This document shows, one piece after another, positions 40,049-42,599 of a DNA stretch of 64,000 bases. Location: positions 868,001 to 932,000 of the forward strand of contig CANNCO010000001.1 in assembly GCA_947503175.1 (NCBI GenBank). The letters are read 5' to 3'. The notes beneath the pieces were generated by a model, which was given only the letters and a program-made list of their open reading frames with translations, made no database searches and had not been told where the DNA came from. Position numbers and translations under genes: made by a program. This stretch comes from an uncultured Paracoccaceae bacterium (lineage in GTDB: Bacteria; Pseudomonadota; Alphaproteobacteria; Rhodobacterales; Rhodobacteraceae). How positions within the stretch are numbered: position 1 is the stretch's first letter; every line of letters begins with the position of its first letter.

Positions 40049-40612
40049 CTAGGATGCACCTCTGGAAAGAGCTGCAACGCCTGTTCGAGCCACTTCGAGA
40101 AGGCCAAGAGGACGCATAAGCTCTGCAAATGCATCGATTTTTTCGGGCGGGCCGGTGATCTCGAATACAAAGGAGTTCAACGTCGAATCAACGACGTTCG
40201 CTCTGAAGATCTCGGCGAGACGTAGCGCCTCGATCCGTTTCTCTCCCTCGCCGGCCACCTTGAACAGCGCAAGTTCACGTTCAACGCTTGGACCTTCGAC
40301 GGTCAGGTCATGTACCTCGTGCACCGGCACGATCCGGCCCAGCTGCGCCTTGATCTGTTCGATAACGCTAGGCGTACCGGTCGTCACGATCGTAATTCGC
40401 GACAGATGGCCCAAGTGATCCACTTCCGCGACGGTCAGGCTTTCGATGTTGTAACCGCGCCCCGAGAAAAGCCCGATAACGCGGGCCAGAACGCCGGCTT
40501 CGTTGTCGACCACGACCGTCAGCGTGTGCCGCTCTGTCTGTTCGGCATGGGGATCACGCAGATCATAGGCAGAATGGCTTGAGACACCCTTCTTGAGTTT
40601 TAGCGGGGACAT
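40049..40612 (-). CDS. ilvN: Acetolactate synthase small subunit
   Basis: HTLTVVVDNEAGVLARVIGLFSGRGYNIESLTVAEVD ACT domain. Confidence 0.95.
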   Translation of the reverse strand: MSPLKLKKGVSSHSAYDLRDPHAEQTERHTLTVVVDNEAGVLARVIGLFSGRGYNIESLTVAEVDHLGHLSRITIVTTGTPSVIEQIKAQLGRIVPVHEVHDLTVEGPSVERELALFKVAGEGEKRIEALRLAEIFRANVVDSTLNSFVFEITGPPEKIDAFAELMRPLGLLEVARTGVAALSRGAS

Positions 40613-40654: not shown

Positions 40655-42412
40655 CTACACAAGAACCGACCCCTTCGCATCAATGACGCCATGTGTTTCG
40701 GCCTCACCCAAAAGCATTTCATTATGGGCCTTGCCGGACGGGATCATCGGGAAGCAGTTTTCGTGCTTTTCCACAAGACAATCGAAGATAACCGGCCCGT
40801 CGTGGTCCAGCATCTCCATGATTGCGTCATCCAGATCGGCCGGATCCTTGCAAAGGATGCCTTTCGCGCCGAATGCTTCGGCCAGCTTGACGAAATCGGG
40901 CAGGGCTTCGGACCATGAATGGCTGTAGCGTTCGCCATGCAGCAGTTCCTGCCACTGGCGCACCATGCCCAAGCGCTCGTTGTTCAGAATGAACTGTTTC
41001 ACAGGCAGACGGTACTGAACCGCCGTGCCCATCTCCTGCATGTTCATCAGCCAGGACGCCTCGCCCGCGACATTGATGACAAGCGCATCGGGATGCGCCA
41101 TCTGAACGCCGATGGAGGCGGGAAAGCCATAGCCCATGGTGCCGAGACCACCGGACGTCATCCATTGGTTCGGTTCTTCGAAGCCAAGATATTGGGCTGC
41201 CCACATCTGGTGCTGGCCCACTTCAGTACAAATGAAACGGTCCTTGCGATGCTTCGTCAGTTCTTCCAGCCGCTTTACCGCATATTGCGGCTTGATCGTC
41301 TTGGCCGAGTTGGTGAATGCGAGGCAATCAACCTTGCGCCAGTCCTTGATCTGGTTCCACCATTGCTGAACGTCAGAAGCGTTCGTCTTTGACCCACGGG
41401 ACTTCCACAATGCGATCACATCCTTCAGGACATTCGCGACGTCGCCGATGATCGGCACGTCGACCCGGATCACCTTGTTGATCGAGGACGGATCGATATC
41501 GATATGAGCTTTCCGTGACTCAGGGCTGAAAGCGTTCAGCCGCCCGGTGATCCGGTCATCGAAGCGTGCCCCGACATTGATCATCACATCGCAGCCATGC
41601 ATCGCCAGATTGGCCTCGTAGAGCCCATGCATTCCCAGCATCCCAATCCAGTTCTTGCCGGAAGCCGGGTAGGCTCCGAGGCCCATCAGGGTAGAGGTGC
41701 ATGGAAAGCCGGTGGCATCGACCAGCTTACGCAGCAATGTCGATGCTTCCGGTCCTGAATTGATCACGCCGCCGCCTGTGTAGAAGACGGGGCGTTCCGC
41801 CGTCTCGATCATCTCGACCAGACGCTCGATCTGCTCGGGATCTCCGGACACTCGCGGCTGATAGTGGTCTGTCCGCGCCTCTTCCGGGGACGAATACGTG
41901 CCGGACGCGAACTGAACGTCCTTTGGAATATCAACAAGGACGGGGCCGGGCCGCCCGGATTTCGCGACGTGGAACGCCTGATGGATCACGTCGGACAGTG
42001 AATCCGTATCGTTAATCAGCCAGTTGTGCTTGGTGCAGGGTCGCGTGATGCCGACCGTGTCGGCCTCCTGAAACGCATCGGTTCCGATCATGAAGGTCGG
42101 CACCTGACCGGTCAGAACAACAATCGGGATCGAGTCCATCAACGCATCGGTCAGGCCGGTCACGGCATTCGTGGCACCGGGGCCGGACGTCACGAGACAG
42201 ACACCAGGCTTGTTCGTCGAACGGGCATAGCCTTCTGCCGCGTGGACCGCACCCTGCTCGTGCCGGACCAGCACATGACGGATGTCGTTCTGTTTGAATA
42301 TCTCGTCATAAATCGGAAGGACAGCACCGCCGGGGTAGCCAAAGACGACATCAACCCCCTGATCCTTGAGGGCCTTAACCACCATCGCAGCGCCTGTCAT
42401 TGTCTGTGCCAT
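40655..42412 (-). CDS. ilvB: Acetolactate synthase large subunit (biosynthetic)
   Basis: [72 protein letters not shown]. Confidence 0.95.
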
Positions 42413-42441: not shown

Positions 42442-42469
42442 AAAAAAGCCCCCGGGGTTAATCGGGGGC
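42442..42469 (-). terminator. Intrinsic terminator (attenuator) in the ilvB leader
   Basis: Minus strand GCCCCCG-attaaccc-CGGGGGC-TTTTTT, between leader peptide and ilvB start. Confidence 0.88.
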
Positions 42470-42511
42470 GCATGGGGTACCAATTGGGTGTCCGTTACCG
42501 GCCCATGCGCC
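42467..42511 (-). promoter_or_regulatory. Antiterminator hairpin of the ilv attenuator
   Basis: Minus strand GGCGCATGGG (42511-42502) pairs perfectly with CCCATGCGCC (42476-42467); its 3' arm overlaps the 5' arm of the terminator by 3 nt. Confidence 0.75.
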
Positions 42512-42542
42512 ACTTTCCTAGAATTACGACGACCCGTATCAT
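42495..42542 (-). CDS. ilv operon leader peptide MIRVVVILGKWRMGR
   Basis: Short ORF on minus strand with consecutive Val-Val-Val-Ile-Leu codons, located between promoter and terminator; not in ORF track. Confidence 0.85.
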   Translation of the reverse strand: MIRVVVILGKWRMGR

Positions 42543-42570
42543 TCCGAAGGCTCCCTAATCAGTGATCGGG

Positions 42571-42599
42571 ACTTTACGGAGGGTGATTTGGGGCGTCAA
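42571..42599 (-). promoter_or_regulatory. Sigma70-type promoter of the ilvBN leader transcript
   Basis: Minus strand TTGACG-N17-TAAAGT, 28 bp upstream of the leader-peptide ATG. Confidence 0.65.

Follow-up and report, generated by a model that had tools for sequence, protein, structure and literature searches.

The ilvBN operon of an uncultured Paracoccaceae bacterium is preceded by a compact leader that we read, with high confidence and as by far the best account, as a ribosome-mediated transcription attenuator. The leader lies on the minus strand of the 64,000-nucleotide stretch of DNA analyzed here (the window), and it very probably switches on the genes of branched-chain amino acid (BCAA) synthesis when those amino acids are short. 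Small and unannotated, it is a regulatory element that the Rhodobacteraceae have family-wide at a core biosynthetic operon, and its design is simpler than that of the textbook attenuator. Related leaders precede a clade of transporter genes annotated as multidrug efflux. If ilvBN and this clade share one element, that sharing offers a testable hint on the physiological role of the transporter. It also lets a catalogued small RNA family, Atu_C8, be re-read as a leader-peptide attenuator.

All parts of the element are on the minus strand. The regulated gene, ilvB, encodes the large subunit of acetolactate synthase (585 aa; 40655..42412, ATG at 42412), and its product is 81-88% identical, over the full length, to proteins from Rhodobacteraceae genomes. 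The second gene of the operon (40049..40612) we take to be ilvN, for the small subunit, from its position and its ACT-domain-like translation. Transcription of the leader would be driven by a sigma-70-like promoter (42571..42599), recognized by its sequence and its conservation in the leaders, which consists of the -35 element TTGACG (42599-42594), a 17-nt spacer and the -10 element TAAAGT (42576-42571). A Shine-Dalgarno sequence, AGGGAG (42551..42556), lies 8 nt 5′ of the ATG of the leader ORF. This ORF (42495..42542) has 15 codons, encodes MIRVVVILGKWRMGR and keeps its form in relatives; it reads ATG ATA CGG GTC GTC GTA ATT CTA GGA AAG TGG CGC ATG GGC CGG TAA, where GTC GTC GTA ATT CTA (Val Val Val Ile Leu; 42519..42533) are the regulatory codons. 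The antiterminator is a hairpin of 10 bp. Its 5′ arm, GGCGCATGGG (42502..42511), falls within leader codons 11-14, and its 3′ arm is CCCATGCGCC (42467..42476); the pairing is conserved, with compensatory changes in relatives. The intrinsic terminator, GCCCCCG-N8-CGGGGGC-T6 (42442..42469), is supported by covariation and is made up of GCCCCCG (42469-42463), an 8-nt loop, CGGGGGC (42454-42448) and T6 (42447-42442). Three nucleotides (42467-42469) are common to the two hairpins. The leader ORF lies 82 nt upstream of ilvB, and the terminator ends 29 nt before it. A first-pass annotation of this DNA had listed the promoter, mini-ORF, upstream hairpin and terminator, and all of them are present base for base at the coordinates it gave. 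The 15-aa peptide it described as Val/Ile/Leu-rich does have 15 codons with five consecutive Val/Ile/Leu codons, and the 3 nt that it had the terminator's 5′ arm share with the upstream hairpin are real (42469-42467).

Conservation was assessed in the 80 closest IlvB loci of a species-genome collection, which come from Rhodobacteraceae/Paracoccaceae or from less precisely named MAGs. A leader ORF with an RMGR-like end is found upstream of ilvB in 77 of these 80 relatives, with 67 distinct peptides; together with the window they form a main group of 78 leaders. Nearly all relatives have a peptide of the pattern M-x-x-(I/L/V)5-G-x-x-RMGR*. At codon columns -12 to -8, counted from the stop, 96% of cells in the 78 leaders are I, L or V, versus 22% I/L/V in IlvB itself. 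Because these five core codons vary synonymously and exchange among V, I and L, the constraint is on the class of amino acid and not on the bases. The leader thus has a feature by which BCAA attenuators are recognized, a short ORF with many codons for the amino acids that the pathway makes. TTGAC stands upstream of 77 of the 78 ORFs, with a TAATGT-like -10 element at 17-nt spacing in 75, and an SD-like motif is seen in 70. The last four codons (CGC ATG GGC CGG), inside which the hairpin arm sits, are nearly fixed, and 51 of the 78 leaders have an exact CGGTAACGG around the stop. The first-pass annotation had proposed looking for a conserved leader ORF and stems in relatives; in that search the ORF, promoter, SD and both stems all proved to be kept, with covariation. 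A covariance model built from the ilvBN leaders (R1) was also run on 101 sampled genomes from the window's family; 90 of them have a match, and several of the other 11 have diverged BCAA leaders. The arrangement is not due to chance, because the I/L/V run is unique in the window (five or more consecutive I/L/V codons occur in 1 of its 573 ATG ORFs of 10-30 codons), the antiterminator hairpin outdoes versions in which the segment with its own 5′ arm is shuffled (p about 0.01, the lowest value that 100 shuffles allow), and 77 of 80 loci keep the arrangement.

Both hairpins are conserved, and covariation was examined in an alignment of 55 leaders. In the terminator 99.5% of cells are paired and four of the seven pairs show two-sided changes, a level reached by none of 500 shuffles. 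An intrinsic terminator between the leader ORF and the first structural gene, a further recognized feature of such attenuators, is therefore present here in conserved and covarying form. The antiterminator is found in 78 of 78 leaders, its 5′ arm starting 11-15 nt before the stop codon, and it overlaps the terminator by 1-4 nt in all of them (2-4 nt in 77, 1 nt in one). Since its arms hardly vary, covariation in the main group is sparse and amounts to one two-sided change, in L088 (CACATGGG/CCCATGTG). Further evidence comes from three diverged leaders (L127, L128 and L201), in which the arms differ in sequence, still pair, and sit at the end of the leader ORF. Compensatory arm changes also occur in two leaders upstream of transporter genes (L190, L124). 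Across 23 diverged leaders, the arm helix is better than shuffles at p<=0.05 in only six, the others being weak or non-significant. Anatomy, conservation, coding constraint, terminator covariation and some arm covariation are thus directly seen.

No protector (1:2) stem, in which the 5′ part of the leader would pair with the antiterminator arm, was found at p<=0.05 against shuffles in any of the 78 leaders. This rejects the three-stem subtype of enteric bacteria, and leaves ribosome-mediated attenuation as such untouched. The first-pass annotation had called the layout classical; ribosome-mediated attenuation is supported by the comparison, but in place of the 1:2, 2:3 and 3:4 stems there are two hairpins. 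With no protector stem, an untranslated leader is therefore expected to read through at least partly, unlike enteric attenuators.

We infer that ribosome stalling, premature termination and its relief proceed as follows. Transcription would start just downstream of TTGACG-N17-TAAAGT, and a ribosome would translate the leader of 15 codons. A shortage of Val-, Ile- or Leu-tRNA would make the ribosome stall in codons 4-8, with its leading edge about 15 nt past the P site. Arm GGCGCATGGG in codons 11-14 would then be free to pair with CCCATGCGCC, occupying the three bases with which the terminator's 5′ arm begins, and polymerase would read into ilvBN. When tRNAs for Val, Ile and Leu are charged, the ribosome would reach the stop codon and cover the whole arm, and the terminator would form. 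The scheme was examined by folding under ribosome masks. When the mask stands for a ribosome at the stop codon, terminator formation has a probability of about 0.99 on average. For a ribosome stalled at the middle BCAA codon, the probability of the basal terminator pairs is about 0.80 in the window and 0.77 on average, versus 0.93 on average under the same mask with shuffled arms. Of the earlier claim that a stall frees the arm and a ribosome at the stop masks it, the second half accords with the value of 0.99, whereas the terminator persists at 0.77-0.80 despite the stall. Masked folding does not bear out the simple view that, at equilibrium, the antiterminator wins over the terminator. Because the two are only weakly exclusive at equilibrium, we infer the antitermination step, and the switch would rest on a kinetic or driving-force argument. 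In the window, the last 3 bp of the terminator contribute -9.9 kcal/mol when they close on their own, but 8.4 of this is given back if the antiterminator must open; it is on closure of these 3 bp that the RNA-DNA hybrid would have to melt. The weak coupling of the two hairpins in equilibrium folding is also what one would expect of a constitutive terminator next to a fortuitous short ORF, with no regulatory coupling at all. Against this stands the conservation of the ORF, SD, BCAA run, arm-to-stop position and overlap in 78 leaders, and we consider such a coincidence extremely improbable.

Attenuation of ilvBN is known from other bacteria, being established in E. coli and described for Caulobacter; the element in the window adds a compact case of this kind. 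The ivbL-ilvBN attenuator of E. coli has a BCAA-rich leader peptide and a terminator before ilvB (PMC6123439), and the window leader resembles it in operon, peptide and terminator. The E. coli peptide has 32 aa with 11 BCAAs (PMC6123439), the window peptide 15 aa with six. A second difference is that the antiterminator arm of the window lies inside the last codons, with no protector stem detected. Closer in phylogeny, the ilvBN operon of Caulobacter crescentus is subject to attenuation, with tandem Ile and Val leader codons and a Rho-independent terminator (Tarleton et al. 1994, as cited in PMC4117421). The likeness is of an alphaproteobacterial ilvBN with an Ile/Val leader and a terminator. 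In Rfam, the locus has no match at the gathering threshold. Weak matches to MEG3_2, NsiR1, gyrA and RNaseP-T (E up to 10) are chance by score. A full-length weak match to Atu_C8 (RF02502; 24.3 bits, below the gathering threshold of 50) covers arm GCGCAUGGGC, its partner and the terminator, that is, the same anatomy. Atu_C8 differs in being catalogued as an sRNA and in having its hairpin 8 nt from the terminator where both are found.

It is also conceivable that the locus mainly yields a terminated small RNA or peptide that acts in trans, and that attenuation of ilvBN comes second. One would expect a discrete terminated RNA of about 120 nt, the related Rhizobiales element is catalogued as an sRNA (Atu_C8), and the peptide hardly ever departs from its RMGR end. 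There is also precedent in the trpL attenuator products of Sinorhizobium (rnTrpL/peTrpL), whose trans functions are cited in PMC10117765. However, the RMGR codons lie precisely where the hairpin arm is and vary together with it. Their conservation is accounted for by base pairing in the RNA, and in every inspected case the element lies directly upstream of a same-strand gene. We therefore consider a primary role in trans unlikely and retain attenuation in cis as the probable function of the leader.

Outside ilvBN, the same kind of leader is found upstream of an MFS transporter gene. In a class-wide sample of 387 genomes, R1 has matches in 17: five in the window's family, eleven outside it, and one (L111) that proved spurious on inspection. 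All 11 real matches outside the family lie upstream of an MFS gene. Such leaders occur in 11 alphaproteobacterial family labels (L100-L110, L089, L115-L119, L124, L190, L193, L194, L196), and four MFS proteins tested as examples match the family TIGR00710 (Bcr/CflA efflux), with scores that reach its cut-off or fall just short of it. The leader-bearing MFS proteins form one clade (22 rows) apart from six Rhodobacteraceae paralogues (100/100). Five genomes of the window's family have a copy before the MFS gene and a second match elsewhere, which is the ilvB leader in the three that were inspected. Like the ilvBN leaders, the MFS leaders have a Val-rich peptide with an RRMxR-like end, GGTAACGG around the stop, the arm CCATGCGCC and an overlapping terminator. 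They differ in having a TIGR00710-family transporter gene downstream, often three rather than five clustered I/L/V codons, and arms often with an internal mismatch. A model of the MFS leaders alone (R2) finds the window leader at E 3.4e-15, a result that is partly circular because those leaders were collected with R1, although the identity of the downstream gene is not circular. A second R2 match in one genome (G626, L197) was spurious on inspection.

Atu_C8 belongs to the same picture. All six genomes with above-threshold matches, from a Rhizobiales-like family (a taxon inferred from the Rfam family's own name), have the match upstream of this MFS gene. In L089 and L115-L119, a Val-rich mini-ORF and usually a terminator are seen directly before the MFS gene. 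Because of this mini-ORF, the usual terminator and the position, Atu_C8 looks like an MFS leader attenuator rather than a stand-alone sRNA.

An efflux-type gene downstream raises another reading, namely that the leader senses a general slowing of translation, for example by ribosome-targeting drugs, and that the BCAA codons are merely slow positions. There is precedent in other bacteria, where leader attenuators that respond to drugs are known to precede efflux genes, and the same RNA family does stand before Bcr/CflA-type genes. Yet the core codons of the ilvBN leaders match the products of the operon and are kept as I, L or V while exchanging among these and their synonyms, and the MFS leaders are Val-rich too. 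We regard this reading as very unlikely and take BCAA supply to be what the leader probably senses.

Common descent of the ilvBN and MFS leaders seems more likely than convergence, because pairing does not require the CGGTAACGG that they share around the stop. In the class sample, neither R1 nor R2 has a match before ilvB in any genome from outside the window's family. A simple ORF-plus-terminator scan detects nothing comparable before ilvB in any of 15 genomes with an MFS leader, and in no more than one (L233) of 27 other class genomes from outside the family; on these counts we reject the idea that the leader is the general one of alphaproteobacterial ilvB. Since ilvB outside the window's family is mostly without a comparable leader, the use of the leader at ilvBN looks derived, with the MFS leader as the wider-spread form. 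We give an even chance to the full proposal, in which a single attenuator family sensing BCAAs, mainly valine, serves a Bcr/CflA-type MFS clade in many families and the ilvBN operon of the Rhodobacteraceae, which apparently took the leader over. If true, the transporter would belong to the BCAA regulon and be a candidate carrier of a BCAA-related substrate, and Atu_C8 would be its Rhizobiales leader. The literature searched holds no report of a leader peptide before Bcr/CflA-type or other alphaproteobacterial MFS genes. A link between the ilvBN leader, the MFS gene and Atu_C8 is likewise not reported in the open-access literature searched, and either leader may have been mentioned earlier elsewhere.

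Finally, several natural variants are evident. Among the 80 closest IlvB loci, no such leader was found in L034 and L069. Elsewhere in the family, no recognizable leader precedes ilvB in L215, L219 and L222, which are all three inspected members of genus label g299, or in L206 and L223-L225. These latter absences are probably losses and would be useful natural controls. In some diverged leaders the hairpin shares no bases with the terminator; a subgroup of ilvBN leaders with a GGCCCC-type or similar terminator (L202, L207, L213, L216, L217 and L220) has this arrangement. Directly 3′ of TTTTTTA in the window, TGCGCG (42440-42435; ATGCGC) is a second copy of the core that the antiterminator 3′ arm contains. 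In readthrough RNA this copy might be a competitor for pairing with the 5′ arm; 30 of 77 leaders have ATGC after the T-tract. In L030, a relative from Sedimentitalea, the leader peptide is cut short to MATLVVIVGT by a TAG immediately ahead of the arm, while the arms and the BCAA run are kept, making this locus a natural variant of the position at which the ribosome stops.
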